This document shows positions 1,055 to 63,018 of a stretch of 64,000 bases of DNA, in pieces (within the stretch, counting starts at the first letter, position 1; every line of letters starts with the position of its first letter). A model generated the notes under the pieces. It saw nothing but the letters and a program-made list of their open reading frames with translations. It ran no database searches and was not told the origin of the DNA. This stretch comes from Segatella oris (GTDB lineage: Bacteria > Bacteroidota > Bacteroidia > Bacteroidales > Bacteroidaceae): contig NZ_LR134384.1 of the NCBI RefSeq assembly GCF_900637655.1, forward strand, positions 1,116,001 to 1,180,000, read 5' to 3'. Made by a program: the position numbers and the translations under genes.

Positions 1055-1149
1055 GCAAATTACATGCGTTGCAACTTGCGTCAGATTACGCCGTAAAATG
1101 AATGAGATTACACCGTAACATGACGCAAGTTACATGGTTTCTTGATATG
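1055..1149. repeat. 22-bp phased intergenic array (copy 1)
   Basis: Unit starts fall at 1077 (TGCGTCA), 1099 (TGAATGA), 1121 (TGACGCA) and 1143 (TGATATG), exactly 22 bp apart, with a weaker unit at 1055. Between cores the units share an ATTACnCCGTAA-like stretch. Same family as the arrays at 4760, 11242, 17783, 24611, 32096, 36310, 44703 and 53766. Confidence 0.75.
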
Positions 1150-4759: not shown

Positions 4760-4891
4760 AGCGTCAAATGGGGCTATGAAATGGCTTAAATCATGCTGTA
4801 AAGTGACCCAAATGAGGCTGTGAAATGCATCATATTGCAGTGTAATCTGCGTCAAATCACACGCTCAAATGATGTAAATTACTTTCTAAAG
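4760..4891. repeat. 22-bp phased intergenic array (copy 2, six units)
   Basis: Unit starts at 4760 (AGCGTCA), 4782 (TGGCTTA), 4804 (TGACCCA), 4826 (TGCATCA), 4848 (TGCGTCA) and 4870 (TGATGTA), exactly 22 bp apart. The longest array in the window. Confidence 0.75.
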
Positions 4892-11193: not shown

Positions 11194-11232
11194 GAAGAAA
11201 AACAGTAAAATAACTAATACCTATGAAGTGAG

Positions 11233-11323
11233 GTTCTCATATGCGTCATATCAGCCGCTGACTTGACGCAGATGACACGGTCATTTGACGCATATTGCAC
11301 GCTAACTTGACGCATATGAGAAC
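11233..11323. repeat. 22-bp phased intergenic array with terminal inverted repeat (copy 3)
   Basis: Units start at 11242 (TGCGTCA), 11264, 11286 and 11308 (all TGACGCA), exactly 22 bp apart. The ends form a perfect 16-bp inverted repeat, GTTCTCATATGCGTCA at 11233-11248 against 11308-11323. It lies just upstream of the second imelysin gene. Confidence 0.85.
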
Positions 11324-11330
11324 TCTGTTT

Positions 11331-11536: not shown

Positions 11537-11644
11537 CATCATGCATCATTGACTGTCGTTGAACTAACATTTCGCAACACATCATGCATCATTGGCTATC
11601 GCAGAACTAACATTTCGCAACACATCATGCATCATAGGCTATCG
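11537..11644. repeat. 43-bp tandem repeat, about 2.5 copies
   Basis: Copies at 11537-11579 and 11580-11622 and a partial third at 11623-11644, each opening CATCATGCATCAT and containing GAACTAACATTTCGCAACA. The first two copies differ at only four positions. Confidence 0.85.
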
Positions 11645-17567: not shown

Positions 17568-17782
17568 CGTTTTAGGACATGAAGTGTGTGTAGATAAATG
17601 TGTTAAAGATGCATCATGTTATTTTACAAAAGCCTCGTCAGGACGGGCCTTGTTTCAAAAGAAATCGTCACTCGGTGGAAATACGCGAGTTTTGAGGCTT
17701 CTTTTTAATTGCTTGATAACCAATGCTTTAATGTAATTCGTTGCCTCTTATGTAATAAATAGCGGCTCATGGGTCTGTATTT

Positions 17783-17892
17783 TGTGCCATATTAGACGGT
17801 AAAGTGACGCAGAAAGCAAGCTGACTTGATGCAGAAAGCATGGCAATATGAAGCAGATAGCAGCGTCGTTTGATGCAAATGACGTGATATCG
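17783..17892. repeat. 22-bp phased intergenic array (copy 4)
   Basis: Units at 17783 (TGTGCCA), 17805 (TGACGCA), 17827 (TGATGCA), 17849 (TGAAGCA) and 17871 (TGATGCA), exactly 22 bp apart. Confidence 0.8.
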
Positions 17893-17960
17893 TGTTTTTT
17901 CTTGGGCTGCTAAAGGTGTGAAATTCATCCAGACAGTCATGTAAATGGGCAACTCTTTTT

Positions 17961-24128: not shown

Positions 24129-24506
24129 CATAAAATTTATGATAAATCAGTACGACAAAGCTGCAAAACAGTAATCTGAAGTGCTGCAAAAAATGCTGTG
24201 AAAAGAGATGAAAAGGCTGACTAATTCACAGCATTGATAAGTTTGTGTCGGATATTGTGTATTGTCATGGCGGGGAAAGACAGCCGGCAAGGAACGTGAA
24301 AAGCGCTGACTTACAGGCCACCCCATGCTGTGTTGCTCCGCTTCTTCATCGGTTATCATTAACATATTGTGCCGGATGGCTCAGTTTACTTGCAGATATT
24401 GAACTATAATTCGCCTTTTCTGAAAAATATATACAATAGCTCTCGTGAGATTTACGCATTTGAAAATGAAGTTCCCTTGGCTCTGAATTCGCGCCGTTTT
24501 CTGTCA

Positions 24507-24797
24507 TTTTGCAAACTATTGACTATCAAGCGGTTATGAAAAACGAATTGAAAAGCGAGGTAAAATCAGGCAAATAAATGGCCGATTTAATATGAAAATG
24601 CTTTGTAAAATGCATCATTTCATCGCGCAATTTGATGCAAATAGCCGTGTAATCTGCGTCAAAATGCAGTGCATGATGAATGGAATTACATGGCAAGGAG
24701 ATAAAAATGGAGACATCGAAGCCATAAGATGGCTTCACACTCACGCTGAAGAAGAGTTTCCGTTTCTATTTGGTGAAGGATTGAAGTGTTAAAAAAC
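24507..24797. repeat. Composite intergenic element (about 290 bp), copy G
   Basis: Order on the plus strand: palindromic box 24507-24539 (TTTTGCAAACTATTGACTAT...), 22-bp array 24611-24698, perfect hairpin GAAGCCAT-AAG-ATGGCTTC (24718-24736), then CTATTTGGTG (24766) and GTGTTAAAAAAC (24786-24797). The same modules in reverse order and orientation make up 44591-44880 and 53654-53942. Confidence 0.75.
24611..24698. repeat. 22-bp phased intergenic array (copy 5)
   Basis: Units at 24611 (TGCATCA), 24633 (TGATGCA), 24655 (TGCGTCA) and 24677 (TGAATGG), exactly 22 bp apart. Confidence 0.8.
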
Positions 24798-24958
24798 AGA
24801 CAACAATTTTTATCCAAAAAGCATACGAAAGGAATGATTTTAGCTGTTGCATTACCTTTTACATCGCACGACTTAGTCTTTCAAAACACCTTGAGACAGT
24901 GGAAGAAAGATTGCAGCACATCGCATCTTGGAGCGAATTTCGCATGTCCTATCCCTGC

Positions 24959-31267: not shown

Positions 31268-32053
31268 ATGATGAACAAGAACAACGCACAAGATACAGCC
31301 TCAGCAAGCGAGAAGCAGGAGAAAGTGGGCTATGTTCACTCCATAGAAAGCTTTGGATCGGTCGACGGACCAGGCATTCGGTTTCTCATTTTCCTACAAG
31401 GCTGCCCCATGCGATGCTTGTTTTGCCACAATCCCGACACTTGGAAGCAAGACAAGACAAGGCCTATGACGGCCGATGAACTGCTTAATCAGGCCGAGAA
31501 ATACCGCTCCTATTGGGGCGAGAAAGGTGGAATCACGGTCAGTGGAGGTGAAGCTTTGCTGCAAATAGACTTTCTCATAGAACTCTTCGAGAAAGCCCAT
31601 GCACGCAGCATCAACACTTGTCTTGACACATCGGCACAGCCTTTTACACGCAAGGGCACGTGGTTTGCGAAGTTTGAACGGCTGATGAAGGTCACAGATA
31701 CCGTGCTCCTCGACATCAAACACATTCGAGAGGACGAACATCGCAAGCTGACCAAGTTCTCCAACAGCAACATTCTTGACTGCGCCCGCTATCTTTCAGA
31801 CATTCAAAAGCCTGTCTGGATACGCCATGTTCTTATCCCCAAGCTCACCGACAACGATGCTTATCTGCACGAACTTGCCGCGTTTCTCAAGACTTTACAC
31901 AACATTGAACGCATTGATATCTTGCCCTATCACACATTAGGCACGTATAAATACGAAGAACTTCACATTGACTATCCACTCAAAGGCATTGAACCGCCGA
32001 CACAGGAACGCATCGACAATGCCAACAGAATCATGGAGTCGGTTTTGGAATAA
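31268..32053 (+). CDS. pflA: Pyruvate formate-lyase activating enzyme (radical SAM)
   Basis: 261 residues. The radical-SAM cluster motif is CPMRCLFC (Cys46, Cys50, Cys53), with VSGGEALLQ as the SAM-binding GGE motif and LLDIKH further on. It uses S-adenosylmethionine and a 4Fe-4S cluster to install the glycyl radical on PflB. A second Met one codon downstream is an alternative start. Confidence 0.95.
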   Translation: MMNKNNAQDTASASEKQEKVGYVHSIESFGSVDGPGIRFLIFLQGCPMRCLFCHNPDTWKQDKTRPMTADELLNQAEKYRSYWGEKGGITVSGGEALLQIDFLIELFEKAHARSINTCLDTSAQPFTRKGTWFAKFERLMKVTDTVLLDIKHIREDEHRKLTKFSNSNILDCARYLSDIQKPVWIRHVLIPKLTDNDAYLHELAAFLKTLHNIERIDILPYHTLGTYKYEELHIDYPLKGIEPPTQERIDNANRIMESVLE

Positions 32054-32095
32054 AGTCTGTTTCTCATGCCTCCTCCCACAACTTACTTTCTCACT

Positions 32096-32205
32096 TGCGT
32101 CAAATGAACGTGTAATCTGCGTCAGATGACACGCTAATATGACGCAGATTGCGAGGTAAAGTGAATGAGATTACAACATGAAATGACGCAAAACATCACA
32201 AAAAC
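32096..32205. repeat. 22-bp phased intergenic array (copy 6)
   Basis: Five units at 32096 (TGCGTCA), 32118 (TGCGTCA), 32140 (TGACGCA), 32162 (TGAATGA) and 32184 (TGACGCA), exactly 22 bp apart. It fills almost the whole 160-bp convergent gap between pflA and the MFP gene. Confidence 0.85.
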
Positions 32206-32213
32206 AACAAGAC

Positions 32214-33323
32214 CTACTTCTCCTCCTCCGCTATTTTCTGCGGACCACGCACCTTATCTTTCTTGCTCAGTCCACTTTTAATCTCTATGTTTATGCCGTC
32301 ACTGAGGCCTGTTACTACGCGTCGACGCTCGAAAGTTTGTTGTTCTCCGCTGCCTTTAACGATATAAACATAGGTGTTATTACCCTCAAACTCAATCGCA
32401 CTTTCAGGCACAGTGAGCACTTGGTTGGCTTGAGCAAGCACGATTTCAGCATTGGCACTGTAGCCCGAACGAAGCTGTGTGCGGCCTAATCCCGTAATGG
32501 CAGCCTTGAGTTCAAACTGATTTGCACCATTGTTTTCTACAGCTTTAGGCGATATATACTCCAATCTTGCCTGCAGTTTCTCGTTCTGAAGCGCCCCAAT
32601 AGTTATCTTCATAGACATTCCTGTGACGAGACTTCCCACTTCGGTTTCATCAATATTACCACGGAAAATCAAGTCGTTCATGTTGGCAACTGTGGCAATC
32701 GTCGTACCGTCATTAAACGTATTACTCAGGATTACGGTGTTACCTACCTTCACAGGAATGTCGAGTATCAACCCACTTACTGTTGAACGAATGAGCGTGG
32801 AACTTGTGCTGGCATTGCTTTTCGACACACCGTCGCGCACCACTTCAAGGTTATCGTTGGCTGCCCGCGCTTCTTCCTGGGCCTGACGCATCGTCTGTCG
32901 CACCTTATCATATTCGTCGGCACTGACCAATCCCTTGTCGAAAAGCACCTTTTCGCGCTGATAATCCACCGTTGCCTGCTTCACATTGACCTCTGCCAAA
33001 CGTACTCTGGCCTCCGCAGAACTAAGCTGTTGCATGTCAGGTATAACCTTTATCTTGGCTATAATCTCCCCAGCCAGTATGGTTTGTCCTGCTTCTTTCG
33101 TGATTTCGGTAATGATTCCACTGATCTGCGGCTTTACATTTACCTCATTTCTCGGCTCAATCTTCCCCGTCACTACCGTTGTCTTCTTCAGGTCCATGAC
33201 TTTAGGCATGAACTCTTCATAAACAATTGACTGGGGGCGTGACTTCATCCAAAGGAACACAAAGGTTCCAATGAAGATCAAAGCAATAATAGCTGCAATG
33301 ATAAACTTAATGTACTTCTTCAT
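32214..33323 (-). CDS. MacA/HlyD-type periplasmic adaptor (membrane fusion protein)
   Basis: About 369 residues: N-terminal membrane anchor (FIIAAIIALIFIGTFVFLW), a lipoyl-like half (EVNVKPQISGIITEITKEAGQTILAGEIIAKI), a coiled-coil hairpin (about 100-165, RVRLAEVNVKQATVDYQREKVLFDKGLVSADEYDKV) and beta-barrel domains. It bridges an inner membrane ABC pump to an outer membrane channel. It is the last gene of the MacAB-like set, whose ATPase and permeases lie upstream. The start MKKYIKF is preferred over one 8 codons upstream. Confidence 0.9.
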   Translation of the reverse strand: MKKYIKFIIAAIIALIFIGTFVFLWMKSRPQSIVYEEFMPKVMDLKKTTVVTGKIEPRNEVNVKPQISGIITEITKEAGQTILAGEIIAKIKVIPDMQQLSSAEARVRLAEVNVKQATVDYQREKVLFDKGLVSADEYDKVRQTMRQAQEEARAANDNLEVVRDGVSKSNASTSSTLIRSTVSGLILDIPVKVGNTVILSNTFNDGTTIATVANMNDLIFRGNIDETEVGSLVTGMSMKITIGALQNEKLQARLEYISPKAVENNGANQFELKAAITGLGRTQLRSGYSANAEIVLAQANQVLTVPESAIEFEGNNTYVYIVKGSGEQQTFERRRVVTGLSDGINIEIKSGLSKKDKVRGPQKIAEEEK

Positions 33324-35015: not shown

Positions 35016-36275
35016 CTACTCTGCCCGCAACGCCTCAATCGGTCTGATTTTTGCCGCTTTCTTAGCCGGAATCAAGCCTGCAAGCGTACCTGCAATGACC
35101 ATAACGAGGGTGGCTTCTATGCAGACATCAAGTCCGACTGTAGGGTTTACGAACATCATTGCCTTAAAAACGCCGGCGTCAACCTGCATATGTCCAATCG
35201 TTGCATCCATGTATTCATTGGCTGCAATGCCCAAAATCATCCCCACATAACCAAAGAACGTGGTAATGATGACACTTTCAATGATGATGAGTTTAAGTAT
35301 GGCCCACGGCTTGGCTCCTATGGCCTTGCGAATTCCAAACTCGCGAGTTCGCTCCTTAACAGTAATGAGCATGATGTTAGAAACACCCACTATGCCACTC
35401 AACAAGGTAAAGATGCCGATTATCCAAAGGGCAGTTCGGATGATGCCCATACCCGTTTCCATCTGCATGGCCTGTGTAAATCGGTTCCAAATCCATATCG
35501 CATCCTCGTCGTCGGGGGCTGCTCTGTGGTTGCGGTTCAGGCTTTCCCGATAGTCTTTCTCAAAGGCTTCATTGTCCTGTTCGGTTTTCAAGCCGTGGAA
35601 AGAGAAATGAAACTCGTCGGCCTTATCACCTTTATTATATATTGTGCGCACAGTGTTGAAAGCCGAAAATGCCCGTGCATTGCGCCCCGAATCGTCTTTT
35701 TTACAGATGCCGACAATCTCAAAACTGAACGAACCCACGTTGACATACCGCCCAATAAGTCCCTGAATGTCTCCCGAAGTGAGTTCACGGGCCTGCTCAT
35801 CATTAATGACAAGCACCTTTCTTGACTGCTGATTGTCAATCAGGTTAACGAACCGCCCGTAGCGCATCTCTATCTTGTTGATGTCCTTTTCATTGGGATA
35901 GACTCCCGAAAGTATCGTATTTGTGTAGTTCTCTCCCAATGAAATCGTGACGTTATTCTGCTCTGCCACCGCCCCCATGTCATCGACATTTGCAGAGAAT
36001 TTCTCGGTTGTCGTTGAAAAATCCTTATCATTTAGCGTAATCTCACGTCCCTCTTTCAGTCCCTGATACTCTTTGGAAGTCTGCCCACCAAACACTTCCA
36101 TGGAGTTAGCCATAAAGCGTCCGCTGTTCTGTTCGGTGGCATTGATGAGTCCATTTCCTGCTCCGAGGAGGAAAATCAGCATGAAGATGCCCCACGCAAC
36201 GGCAAAGCCCGTAAGCCCGGTACGCAGTTTATTGCGCTTAGCTGTAGCCCATATTTCAGCAAAAATGTCTCTCAT
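35016..36275 (-). CDS. MacB-like ABC transporter permease (FtsX family), 2
   Basis: About 419 residues from MRDIFAEIWATAKRNKLRTG; the frame continues 18 codons further but without family character. Same plan as permease 1: N-terminal helix, periplasmic domain, and C-terminal helices with GVSNIMLITVKERTREFGIRKAIGAKPWAILKL and LIPAKKAAKIRPIEALRAE. It is separated from the ATPase gene by a 22-bp phased array. Confidence 0.9.
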   Translation of the reverse strand: MRDIFAEIWATAKRNKLRTGLTGFAVAWGIFMLIFLLGAGNGLINATEQNSGRFMANSMEVFGGQTSKEYQGLKEGREITLNDKDFSTTTEKFSANVDDMGAVAEQNNVTISLGENYTNTILSGVYPNEKDINKIEMRYGRFVNLIDNQQSRKVLVINDEQARELTSGDIQGLIGRYVNVGSFSFEIVGICKKDDSGRNARAFSAFNTVRTIYNKGDKADEFHFSFHGLKTEQDNEAFEKDYRESLNRNHRAAPDDEDAIWIWNRFTQAMQMETGMGIIRTALWIIGIFTLLSGIVGVSNIMLITVKERTREFGIRKAIGAKPWAILKLIIIESVIITTFFGYVGMILGIAANEYMDATIGHMQVDAGVFKAMMFVNPTVGLDVCIEATLVMVIAGTLAGLIPAKKAAKIRPIEALRAE

Positions 36276-36309
36276 TACTTCACTCTTTGGTTTACATTGT
36301 TTCTTCTGT

Positions 36310-36441
36310 TCTGTCAAGACTGTTTGCAAGGTGCGTCAACTGCGTTTGCAACTTGACTCAAATCATCGTGCAACTTGACTCAAATCAGCACATAACTTGA
36401 CGCAGTTTGCACGATGATTTGACGCAAGTCAGAAGCTGTTT
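36310..36441. repeat. 22-bp phased array inside an exporter operon (copy 7)
   Basis: Units at 36310 (TCTGTCA), 36332 (TGCGTCA), 36354 (TGACTCA), 36376 (TGACTCA), 36398 (TGACGCA) and 36420 (TGACGCA), exactly 22 bp apart. It sits between the ATPase stop (36473) and the permease start (36275), which are in the same direction. Confidence 0.85.
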
Positions 36442-36472
36442 CGTATCATATTGATGTTCAATGCGTTAGCAA

Positions 36473-37192
36473 CTACTTCATCACTCCGTCTATGCCGAAT
36501 GGCGAAGCATGGTGATCGAAGTTGTTTTCTATCTTACCTATGATGCCATCTTTAATGTGAACAATCTTGTTGGTCTCGTTAGCCACGCCGCTTTCATGCG
36601 TCACCACGACAATCGTTTTGTGCTCTTCGGCATTGAGTTGCTTCAAGAGTTGCATCACTTCGACCGAGGTCTTGCTGTCCAAGGCGCCCGTAGGTTCGTC
36701 GGCAAGGATAATGCGTGGCTGCGTGATTAAGGCGCGGGCAATGGCTACACGCTGCTTCTGTCCGCCCGACATCTCGTTGGGATAGTGGTCGGCCCAAGGC
36801 AGAAGGCCCAGCTTGTCAAGATAGTCGAGGGCCAATTGATGCCTTTTCCGACGGCTGACTCCCTGATAGAAGAGTGGCAGCTCGACGTTTTCGACGGCCG
36901 TCTTGAAGCCAATCAGATTGAAACTTTGAAAGATAAAGCCAATCATCTTGTTGCGGTATTCGGCGGCACGCGACTCAGAAAGGTCTTTGATGAGCGTGTC
37001 GCCAAGCACGTATTCGCCACTGTCGTAGTTGTCAAGTATACCGAGAATATTCAGAAGAGTGGACTTTCCGGAGCCTGAAGCGCCCATGATGGAAACGAAT
37101 TCTCCCTCTTCTATGTCGAGGTTTATGCCTTTGAGAACGTGCAAAGGCTGTGCCCCTTGGTAGGTTTTGTTTATGTCTTTGAGATGAATCAT
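36473..37192 (-). CDS. MacB/LolD-type ABC transporter ATPase
   Basis: 239 residues with Walker A GASGSGKST (about 36-44), signature MSGGQKQRVAIARAL, Walker B IILADEPTGALD and the H-loop VVVTHES. The length and the ADEPTGALD form are those of LolD/MacB-class ATPases. It powers the two FtsX-type permeases downstream. It is separated from the upstream exporter gene by 65 bp. Confidence 0.92.
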   Translation of the reverse strand: MIHLKDINKTYQGAQPLHVLKGINLDIEEGEFVSIMGASGSGKSTLLNILGILDNYDSGEYVLGDTLIKDLSESRAAEYRNKMIGFIFQSFNLIGFKTAVENVELPLFYQGVSRRKRHQLALDYLDKLGLLPWADHYPNEMSGGQKQRVAIARALITQPRIILADEPTGALDSKTSVEVMQLLKQLNAEEHKTIVVVTHESGVANETNKIVHIKDGIIGKIENNFDHHASPFGIDGVMK

Positions 37193-44590: not shown

Positions 44591-44880
44591 TTTTTAACAC
44601 TTCAATTCTCCACCAAATAGAAACGAGAACTCGTCTTCAGTGTGAGTATGAAGCCATTCTGTGGCTTTGATATTCTCATTTCCAACACTTTGTTTTGTAA
44701 AAAGCCGCATATTGCACTGCAATCTCAGTCATTTTACCACGTAATCTGACTGAGAATGCGGTGCGTTTTGCATCAGTTGATGCAGTGATTCCATACAGAT
44801 GACGTCGTTTTTCTACGTGATTTAGTTTTATAATTAGACTTTAATTTTGTAACCATTTGATTTTTAATAGGTTACAAACT
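44591..44880. repeat. Composite intergenic element (about 290 bp), copy H
   Basis: Order: TTTTTAACACTTC (44591), CACCAAATAG (44611), hairpin arms AAGCCA/TGGCTT (44651-44667), 22-bp array 44703-44812, and palindromic box 44849-44875 opening GTAACC and closing GGTTAC. Same order as 53654-53942 and the reverse of 24507-24797. Confidence 0.75.
44703..44812. repeat. 22-bp phased intergenic array (copy 8)
   Basis: Units at 44703 (weak), 44725 (TCAGTCA), 44747 (TGACTGA), 44769 (TGCATCA) and 44791 (CCATACA), exactly 22 bp apart. It is more degenerate than most copies. Confidence 0.65.
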
Positions 44881-53653: not shown

Positions 53654-53942
53654 TTTTTAACATTTCATGGTTCCACCAAACAGAAAAGAAGACTCCATTT
53701 CTCCGTTTGTGCGAGGCCATTTTATGGCTTCAATGACTCCGTTTTTATCTTCTTGCTGTGCAACTCCATTCACCATGCACTGCATTTTGACGCAGATTAC
53801 ACCGCTATTTGCACCAAATTGCGTGGTAATCTGATGCAATTTGGAAGCTCATTTGATGCAAATTGCATGGATTTTCAGCGTGAACACAGGACGTTATTTG
53901 ATTGCAATTTTATAACAACTTGATTGTCAGTAGTTTATAAAA
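53654..53942. repeat. Composite intergenic element (about 290 bp), copy I
   Basis: Order: TTTTTAACATTTC (53654), CCACCAAACAG (53673), hairpin GGCCATTTTATGGC (53716-53729), 22-bp array 53766-53875, palindromic box with CTTGATTGTCAGTAGTTTAT ending at 53942. Closest in sequence to copy G (reversed). Confidence 0.75.
53766..53875. repeat. 22-bp phased intergenic array (copy 9)
   Basis: Units at 53766 (weak), 53788 (TGACGCA), 53810 (TGCACCA), 53832 (TGATGCA) and 53854 (TGATGCA), exactly 22 bp apart. Confidence 0.8.
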
Positions 53943-61918: not shown

Positions 61919-62944
61919 ATGAAAGAAACTTCGCCTATAACGATGAAAGATATAGCCCGCGAGCTTGGTGTTTCGGTGGCTACGGTGTCGCGCGCACTGA
62001 AAGACAGCCCCCGCATCAGCCAGGAGAAACGCGAGGCTATCAAGGCCTTTGCAGAAGAACATCATTTCTTTCGGAATGTCATTGCAGAGAGTTTGCGCAA
62101 CAGTCGCACGAAGCCTGTCAAGGTTATTGGCGTCATTATCCCGCAGTTTACGCATTTCTATTTCTCTTCAATTCTTAGTGGTATTGAGGAAGAAGCATCT
62201 GCCCGAGGCTATAGAATCATGGTAGCGCAGAGCAATGAAAAGTATGGTCGCGAGGTAGAAATATGCAAGTCGTTTTATGAAAACAAGGTTTGTGGCATCA
62301 TTGTGTCGCAGGCTAAGGACACCATTCAATACGATCATTTCCAGCATTTGATTGACCATGGCGTGCCATTGGTGTTCTATGACCGCATCTGCACAGGTGT
62401 CAATTGCAGCCGGGTCGTGGTAGATGATTACATGGGAGCCTATACAGCGGTGAACTATCTCATTGATACGGGATGCCGAAAGATTGCTTTCTATGGATCT
62501 TCCATGAAGCTTGAGATTACGAAAAACCGTTATAATGGCTATCATGATGCTATGGTCAATAAGGGATTACAGCCCGATGAACGGTTTGTCAAACTGTGTG
62601 ACAACCGCACAGATGCCGAGGTTATCACACCTGACATCTTGGCCAATGCCGACCGTCCTGATGCATTCTTCGCCGTCAACGACGACACTGCAATCGGTAT
62701 TCTCTATACCGCTAAGCGCATGGGGCTACGCGTTCCCGACGATATCAGCATCTGCGGGTTCACCAACGGACAGCGAGCTATCGCCTGTGATCCTATGCTT
62801 ACGACGGTCGAACAGCGTGGAATGGTGGTGGGAGAAGAGGCCGCCAACATTCTCATTGGCTTGACAGAAGGCTCCATCCCCAAGGGTAAGGTGGAAAAAC
62901 GCGTCGTCAGAACACGCCTGATTGTGAGGGGAACAACGCGATAG
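61919..62944 (+). CDS. LacI family transcription regulator of the sus-like locus
   Basis: 341 residues: N-terminal helix-turn-helix (TMKDIARELGVSVATVSRALKDSPRISQEKREAI, residues 8-42), then a periplasmic-binding-protein-like effector domain (VIGVIIPQFTHFYFSSILSGIEEEA, GVPLVFYDRI, DAFFAVNDDTAIGILYTAKRMGLRVPDDISICGF). Related Bacteroidetes regulators control maltodextrin loci and respond to the sugar or a product. Operator candidates are at 61823 and 61794. Confidence 0.93.
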   Translation: MKETSPITMKDIARELGVSVATVSRALKDSPRISQEKREAIKAFAEEHHFFRNVIAESLRNSRTKPVKVIGVIIPQFTHFYFSSILSGIEEEASARGYRIMVAQSNEKYGREVEICKSFYENKVCGIIVSQAKDTIQYDHFQHLIDHGVPLVFYDRICTGVNCSRVVVDDYMGAYTAVNYLIDTGCRKIAFYGSSMKLEITKNRYNGYHDAMVNKGLQPDERFVKLCDNRTDAEVITPDILANADRPDAFFAVNDDTAIGILYTAKRMGLRVPDDISICGFTNGQRAIACDPMLTTVEQRGMVVGEEAANILIGLTEGSIPKGKVEKRVVRTRLIVRGTTR

Positions 62945-62954
62945 GTTTTGAGAT

Positions 62955-63018
62955 TTGAACTTTAAACTTTGAACATTGAGGTGTTGGATATTGAGCTTTG
63001 AGCGTTGAACTTTGAATT
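62955..63018 (+). repeat. 7-bp tandem repeat (TTGAACT-like), nine units
   Basis: Units TTGAACT, TTAAACT, TTGAACA, TTGAGGT, an 8-bp GTTGGATA, TTGAGCT, TTGAGCG, TTGAACT and TTGAATT run without gap between the lacI-type gene and the transporter gene. Confidence 0.75.

Follow-up and report, generated by a model that had tools for sequence, protein, structure and literature searches.

REP/BIME elements of enterobacteria are intergenic palindromic repeats that occur by the hundreds, some of them thought to bind topology proteins, and plasmid iterons and partition centromeres are direct repeats of 11 or 20-22 bp that are cooperatively bound. The arrays that we describe here from a Segatella oris genome differ from both, as REP/BIME elements consist of longer hairpin units that follow no 22-bp helical phase, and iterons and partition centromeres come as one or a few arrays per replicon as opposed to about 290 along this chromosome. 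To our knowledge, no system of such a kind has been described for Prevotella chromosomes, and neither the 22-bp geometry, nor its wide spread in the genus, nor the turnover of its core was found in print in searches of one open-access library.

PINSR is a 188-bp intergenic repeat of P. intermedia, two strains of which carry 177 and 184 copies (Naito et al. 2015, PMC4755523). In the parts of that report used here, PINSR is without terminal inverted repeats, is missing from most strain-specific CTn/MTn regions, has about three quarters of its positions in common between the two strains and has one copy downstream of tnaA; its authors call it specific to one species group and give its source and function as unknown. 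The S. oris arrays are likewise intergenic, non-coding and present in hundreds, but the element size of PINSR differs from that in the genome studied here, as its sequence probably does, and section 3.4 of the report, as far as used, describes no 22-bp period, no dyad symmetry and no relatives with other cores (PMC4755523). The BrickBuilt MITE of Porphyromonas gingivalis, of which there are 19 elements, is built on a 23-nt repeat, AGAYCATARTATCCTCTCRTRTG, and has terminal inverted repeats resembling those of IS elements (PMC4596501; the repeats are also in PMC5771137). BrickBuilt resembles our arrays in that it is dispersed in a related genus and has a tandem array inside, together with a conserved leader and tail; we reject identity with it, as the period is 22 instead of 23 and the sequence is another.

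Arrays in the window and along the chromosome

The window, a stretch of 64,000 nt of the S. oris chromosome, had been reported in an initial annotation to hold nine intergenic arrays with an exact 22-bp period, and all nine were found again; the accompanying estimate of four to six units per array proved too narrow, as the scored length runs from three to seven units in the window and from two to nine across the 46 arrays of a larger sample. None of the nine is assigned a strand. The array at 1077..1142 has three scored units, with a weak fourth at 1055 (score -2.1), and convergent genes on either side; six units make up the array at 4760..4891 and five scored units that at 11220..11329, where the best cores lie at 11242-11329. 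Seven scored units are found at 17761..17914, five at 24589..24698 and six each at 44681..44812 and 53744..53875, all four arrays lying within a larger dispersed element and those at 17761 and 44681 being flanked by convergent genes; a weak gene call (53657-53776, score 14) under the left end of the array at 53744 is probably false. The two remaining arrays, of six scored units each, fill gaps of 160 and 155 bp, with genes on both sides at 8-20 bp. The array at 32074..32205 occupies the convergent gap between a radical-SAM protein gene (31268..32053, + strand, Pfam PF04055), which comes after a pyruvate formate-lyase-like gene, and an HlyD-type membrane-fusion protein gene (32214..33323, - strand, PF13437/PF16576). 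The array at 36332..36463 stands between two adjoining same-strand ABC-transporter genes, encoding a MacB/FtsX-type permease (35016..36317, - strand, PF02687/PF12704) and an ABC ATPase (36473..37192, - strand, PF00005). The window also contains tandem repeats of 43-bp and 36-bp period (11537-11644 and 62943-63015, respectively), which are unrelated to the arrays.

A symmetrised 22-bp matrix, iterated on a 464-kb sample made up of the window and 20 evenly spaced 20-kb stretches, yielded 46 arrays, the window's nine among them, and found 0 arrays both on one order-1 Markov copy and on the reversed sequence. When the period of the matrix was varied, 45 arrays were obtained at 22 bp and none at 20, 21, 23 or 24; periods of 11, 33 and 44, which have a phase in common with 22 as a fraction or multiples, gave 31, 11 and 81. 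At a cut-off of 24 there were 77 arrays in 830 kb (37 in the evenly spaced samples, 400 kb, and 40 in the window with its surroundings, 430 kb), with 0 arrays in 10 x 464 kb of Markov sequence and 0 in 50 intergenic shuffles, and the density of about 92 per Mb extrapolates to about 290 arrays per genome. The midpoint of none of the 77 falls in a gene predicted by our simple purpose-written caller, which bears out the earlier claim that all copies are intergenic. The same is true of the 22-bp period in a comparison fixed beforehand as its refutation test: pairs of TGNNNCA at lag 22 numbered 82 in 68.8 kb of intergenic DNA, with a shuffle mean of 1.3 and 0-3 pairs at each of the other lags from 15 to 30, and in 391 kb of coding DNA they numbered 6, within a span of 2-16 over lags 15-30 and hence without an excess at lag 22.

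Other parts of the initial annotation hold with amendment. Its statement that the arrays show no slippage is correct for the window (0 slips), with one slip between adjacent segments among the 77 arrays; with a looser matrix, two arrays, one of them that at 24589, come after a weaker segment and are offset from it by one base more than a multiple of 22, the starts of segment and array being 1140478 and 1140589 in one case and 1271043 and 1271132 in the other, in chromosome coordinates. Convergent gaps, where many copies were said to lie, are favoured without being required: among gaps of at least 140 bp, an array is present in 21 of the 43 that are convergent, in 13 of the 51 that are divergent and in 37 of the 134 that are tandem, and four of the window's nine arrays are convergent. 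The pattern TGACGCA-15N-TGACGCA, at no more than two mismatches, has 400 matches in the S. oris genome, against 42 for the backward control, and between 2 and 53 in every one of 59 relatives; the TGACGCA core itself is a property of this genome. The nine reported arrays are thus confirmed as real, and the phenomenon is larger than first described, with dyads every 11 bp, the flanks of a larger element and a core that differs between species as additions.

Arrays are also under-dispersed along the chromosome. With arrays closer than 300 bp merged and a random choice among intergenic gaps as the null, neighbour distances below 4.5 kb made up 6 of 48 in S. oris, where 14-15 were expected (p <= 0.0014), and 3 of 39, where about 10 were expected (p <= 0.0016), in the sister species G323, the closest relative found among 398 genomes (the pyruvate formate-lyase-like genes of the two are 83% identical in DNA); the median spacings of 8.4 and 9.9 kb, respectively, are not significant alone (p 0.09-0.12). 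One array-free stretch of 88 kb (G000:C1:1341864-1430148, loci L242-L246 and L040, GC 0.418) encodes TraG, a CTnDOT-type TraJ, TraM and a tyrosine integrase among eight proteins examined, and therefore holds a conjugative transposon. Arrays are absent from this acquired island, the one element examined, and resemble PINSR in this respect too. In G323 there are five array-free stretches, of 22-45 kb each.

Symmetry of the unit and larger dispersed elements

The 22-bp matrix, built from 41 units, is two-fold symmetric, its best axis, at unit position 4, scoring 4.87 and the next best 0.82; at period 22 this entails symmetry about position 15 as well, and therefore one dyad every 11 bp. The dyad at position 4 is flanked by TG and CA, and that at position 15 by TTRC and GYAA. 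Scored length averages 123 bp (s.d. 27, n = 46), and the commonest of 223 cores are TGACGCA (50), TGATGCA (33) and TGACTCA (22); the letters of the units diverge and the phase is kept. Among 485 dyad centres, 232 have the form C.T or A.G and 253 neither; counts summed over both dyad kinds, with the middle bin excluded, gave 76 C.T and 27 A.G to the left of the array's middle and 28 and 82 to its right, so that in S. oris the whole array is symmetric. The dyad centre triplets of G323 differ from these.

Covariation between symmetry partners is slight, and for the most part they act like half-sites independent of each other. Over 120 distances of up to 60 bp the top z values are 4.1, for a single covarying position pair (9 bases, about dyad 4), 2.9 and 2.1; anti-complementarity is seen at the centre pair (z -6.2 and -5.3). 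RNAalifold predicted 0 pairs on 43 arrays. Since covariation is nearly absent and no pairs are predicted, half-sites on double-stranded DNA fit the arrays better than a hairpin. The arrays also combine a fixed helical phase with degenerate linkers, a feature expected of a protein-binding array.

In about half of the cases the array is the middle of a larger dispersed element. Profile searches of the 464 kb matched a left flank at 25 of the 46 arrays, one of them weakly (E 0.03), and a right flank at 18; the raw matches number 36 and 18, the left tally including overlaps on both strands, and all lie within 87 bp of an array. Around the array at 24589, conserved left and right modules were matched at 24401..24570 (+ strand, nhmmer E 2.7e-32) and 24707..24812 (+ strand, E 5.5e-22). 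The arrays at 32074 and 36332 matched neither profile. The spacings of the flank matches vary by about one unit, copies of one element elsewhere in the genome are 65-86% alike, and a second flank family links four loci (L032_12382, L037_743, L047_777 and L047_18897). By eye, GTTAA...TTTACA boxes stand near both ends of the element in direct orientation; in the relative G107 the ends read TGTAAA...TTTACA and are thus inverted. The GTTAA...TTTACA boxes may be promoter-like boxes or element ends. The larger element (24401-24812 of the window and similar copies) also carries an inverted repeat, AAATACGCG.

Arrays in the sister species and other relatives

The main cores differ between the two species. 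In G323 the commonest of 174 cores are TCAGCCA (46), TCACCCA (26) and TGGCCCA (21), i.e. TGGSYSA; some cores occur in both species, TCAGTCA 12 times in S. oris and 7 times in G323, and TGACCCA 3 and 6 times. The S. oris matrix finds 41 arrays on G323 C1, where the G323 matrix finds 40, and the G323 matrix finds 43 on 506 kb of S. oris, where the S. oris matrix finds 55. The plan is common to both genomes, with a core that has shifted rather than been swapped for another altogether. Intergenic DNA of G323 C1, e.g. around 355100 and 375900, also carries a dispersed palindrome, GGACGCACGG..CCGTGCGTCC, beside several arrays.

Arrays stand at several matching sites of the sister species. Six arrays of the window lie in or beside segments conserved in G323, and for four of these (17761, 24589, 36332 and 44681) the matching gap holds an array of the symmetric kind. 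The gap matching the array at 32074 holds no array, and that matching 11220 holds unrelated 22-bp repeats (C1:344560-344800, locus L205: two adjacent 22-bp repeats with unrelated cores). At 36332, the array and that in the same gap between ABC ATPase and FtsX-type permease genes of G323 are in phase and 58% identical over the stretch, the alignment having one single-base gap only, outside the array; none of the four paired cores reads alike in the two species, and the first S. oris core is without a counterpart. At this one site the aligned letters show cores that changed in place; for the other five loci the quality of the alignments does not permit a judgement. Across 42 orthologue gene sides with gaps of at least 100 bp, arrays were present in both species at 10, in S. 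oris only at 7, in G323 only at 3 and in neither at 22 (Fisher p 0.16 for upstream and 0.03 for downstream sides, which are not fully independent, as some gaps count for two sides), and where the orthologues are adjacent on both sides of the gap, one of three arrays is shared (p 0.07). Array positions are likely, but not securely, conserved between the two species.

A sequence-only model built from 43 arrays, R1, matches 64 of the 299 genomes of the genus at E <= 0.001, S. oris included, with 14 candidates scored per genome. Periodicity was also read with a lag scan, which is blind to sequence and so catches arrays with other cores that R1 misses; the relatives scanned were mostly chosen by an R1 match, G023 and G107 being without a listed one. 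Lag-22 matches, followed in brackets by palindromic ones, which are upper bounds because the palindrome threshold is loose, numbered 48 (47) in 464 kb of S. oris, 72 (64) in 475 kb of G323, 22 (22) in 120 kb of G107, 10 (10) in 120 kb of G275, 8 (7) in 60 kb of G284, 6 (6) in 60 kb of G309, 6 (5) in 80 kb of G084, 5 (2) in 80 kb of G145, 2 (2) each in 60 kb of G197, 40 kb of G207 and 40 kb of G023, and 1 (1) in 39 kb of G248; 19.7 kb of G001 gave 0 de novo, yet R1 has 12 matches in that genome. Lag 22 tops lags 19-25 in S. oris, G323, G309, G284, G084, G107 and G275, ties in G145 and G023, and is not top in G197, G207, G248 and G001. The period stands out in 6 of the 12 relatives, and in the other six 20-80 kb were read each. 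Other families of the order show no enrichment, with 2 (2) matches at lag 22 in 296 kb against 14 at lag 21.

By eye, the main core reads TTTGCGKCAAA in G309, ATGCCACAT in G284, TTTGCAGCAAA in G197, AATGGGCCATT in G207, TTTGGGCGAAA in G084, AAAACCTACGCTTTT in G107 and AAAAGCAATGCTTTT in G275; 22-bp repeats with unrelated cores are also found in G145, G309, G284, G107 and G323, and one core per genome is an approximation. Arrays carry an AT wave of period 11, with a mean power of 4.4-11.3 in eight of nine genomes and 2.7 in G284 (the G197 and G207 values being those of two arrays each), compared with 0.6-2.0 in other intergenic DNA; AT power at 22 is 0.4-4.2. A set of arrays picked for repeating every 22 bp will tend to show power at 22 and at the harmonic 11 in any case, and the informative part of the wave is that the power lies mostly at 11 rather than 22. 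What is common to the relatives is the 22-bp period and the 11-bp AT wave, not the letters of the core. A universal TTRCnnnGYAA motif at the second dyad was rejected, as its lag-22 pairs, 6 in S. oris, 14 in G323, 16 in G107 and 1 in G275, are absent in G309, G284 and G084.

G107 has a dispersed repeat that is itself a 22-bp array, its length estimated by eye at about 190-200 bp from a consensus of 19 members. A 459-aa Beta_elim_lyase-family gene, presumably tnaA, has one copy immediately downstream, and all 22 lag-22 matches in the 120 kb pass the loose palindrome threshold, at least two having unrelated cores. By description, not by the letters of a consensus, this repeat is probably PINSR, and because its core is unlike TGACGCA, the repeat of S. 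oris is unlikely to be the PINSR consensus.

TGCGTCA-type loci of period 22 were also inspected in other records, 36 among 80 listed of 93 stretches. Six (L051, L053, L054, L072, L124 and L126) resemble genuine symmetric arrays. The non-Prevotella loci among the 36 look like homogeneous 22-bp minisatellites or like shorter repeats that lack the symmetric plan, and they were caught since a period of 22 is built into the search pattern; five loci of Prevotella records (L052, L057, L058, L077 and L105) and four matched viral contigs look like minisatellites as well. Homogeneous 22-bp TGCGTCA minisatellites were seen in Treponema RUI307 (L059, L092, L098, L113 and L116) and in Nonlabens (L075, L081, L088 and L120), where the search pattern has probably selected them.

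Candidate explanations for the arrays

Because phase and symmetry are kept while letters are free, because each genome has its main core and because placement is intergenic and spread out, our best reading, to which we give slightly less than an even chance, is that the arrays are rows of dyad sites for a putative cooperative DNA-bending protein and serve as marks on the chromosome. Each array would be a platform of two-fold symmetric sites on which a dimeric DNA-binding protein assembles side by side, each full unit taking up two helical turns and each turn holding a dyad. The protein would bend or wrap about 120 bp of DNA and co-evolve with the core, and the intergenic platforms, typically about 8-10 kb apart, would probably be marks that organise the chromosome or insulate. 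The initial annotation had already proposed a cooperatively binding protein with its sites in a row, and the phasing, the two-fold units, the lack of an RNA pairing signal, the 11-bp AT wave and the arrays with other cores at some matching sites of the sister species fit that proposal best; the protein is the part that we infer. Several findings count against our reading: cores overlap between species and each matrix finds the other's arrays, positional conservation concerns few sites, six of the 12 relatives are without a clear lag 22, several genomes have more than one core, G323 has its array-free stretches, and one position pair covaries. In addition, larger dispersed repeats enclose about half of the arrays, and the spreading of an element would fit this too.

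The AT wave of period 11 recurs in genomes whose cores differ, and this recurrence, together with under-dispersed spacing, is also what a purely structural signal would give, in which phased AT blocks form curved DNA that pins supercoil plectonemes without any sequence-specific protein. In the parts of the literature used here, periodicity of about 11 bp is commonly tied to negatively supercoiled DNA (PMC4132750) and plectoneme position is sequence-dependent (PMC6301789), but periodic motifs have also been argued not to impart bending (PMC7537859). Curvature alone requires neither a genome-specific core, nor exact two-fold symmetry, nor a 22-bp over an 11-bp repeat, and we regard this explanation as quite unlikely: it accounts for the wave, not for the core. 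The flanks point instead to MITE-like miniature mobile elements, with the array as their internal minisatellite and the pattern a result of copying, not function, for which BrickBuilt, as far as its description was used, is a precedent. The flank matches at 25 (left) and 18 (right) of 46 arrays, the spacings that vary by about one unit, the 65-86% likeness between copies and the presence of at least one second flank family all agree with such elements. However, the arrays at 32074 and 36332 lie within 8-20 bp of genes on both sides without such flanks, units lose letters yet hold phase, the acquired transposon is without arrays, and copying alone is insufficient for 36332, where each species has its own core in a matching place. 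A mobile minisatellite accounts for the flanks and leaves the other features unexplained, and we hold it to be unlikely, if a serious contender.

Neisseria and Pasteurellaceae have DNA uptake sequences with dialects, and an uptake or self-recognition signal whose dialect changes between species along with its receptor would be spread out, with one main motif here and another in the sister species, and missing from the acquired island, as is the case in the one examined. Known uptake signals, however, are single short words that occur in genes too and have no 22-bp phasing, whereas none of the 77 arrays has its midpoint in a gene and all share that phasing, so that we find this highly improbable. 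More improbable still is that the arrays act as RNA, in the form of long hairpins at which transcription terminates or mRNA is processed. Two-fold symmetry permits such fold-back and convergent gaps are favoured, but the near-absence of covariation at distances to 60 bp (one pair excepted) and the RNAalifold result disfavour a hairpin, arrays stand in divergent gaps too and between two genes of one transporter, and an Rfam search of the window for a known RNA family gave no match at gathering score.

Returning to the rows of dyad sites, the wider form of that reading is that platforms for a putative sequence-specific organiser mark the chromosomes of Prevotella at intervals of about 10 kb, and that its recognition core turns over between species while the 22-bp/11-bp architecture stays fixed genus-wide; this we consider possible but doubtful. 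If true, core turnover at hundreds of sites would be comparable to that of centromeres or PRDM9, but in bacteria. A fixed geometry with changing letters would make the arrays a ready bait for the missing DNA-binding protein, and the relatives would offer a natural series of matched site variants in which to follow the joint change of a protein and its sites, hundreds in number. The arrays may also offer an explanation for PINSR, whose 2015 description came with none.
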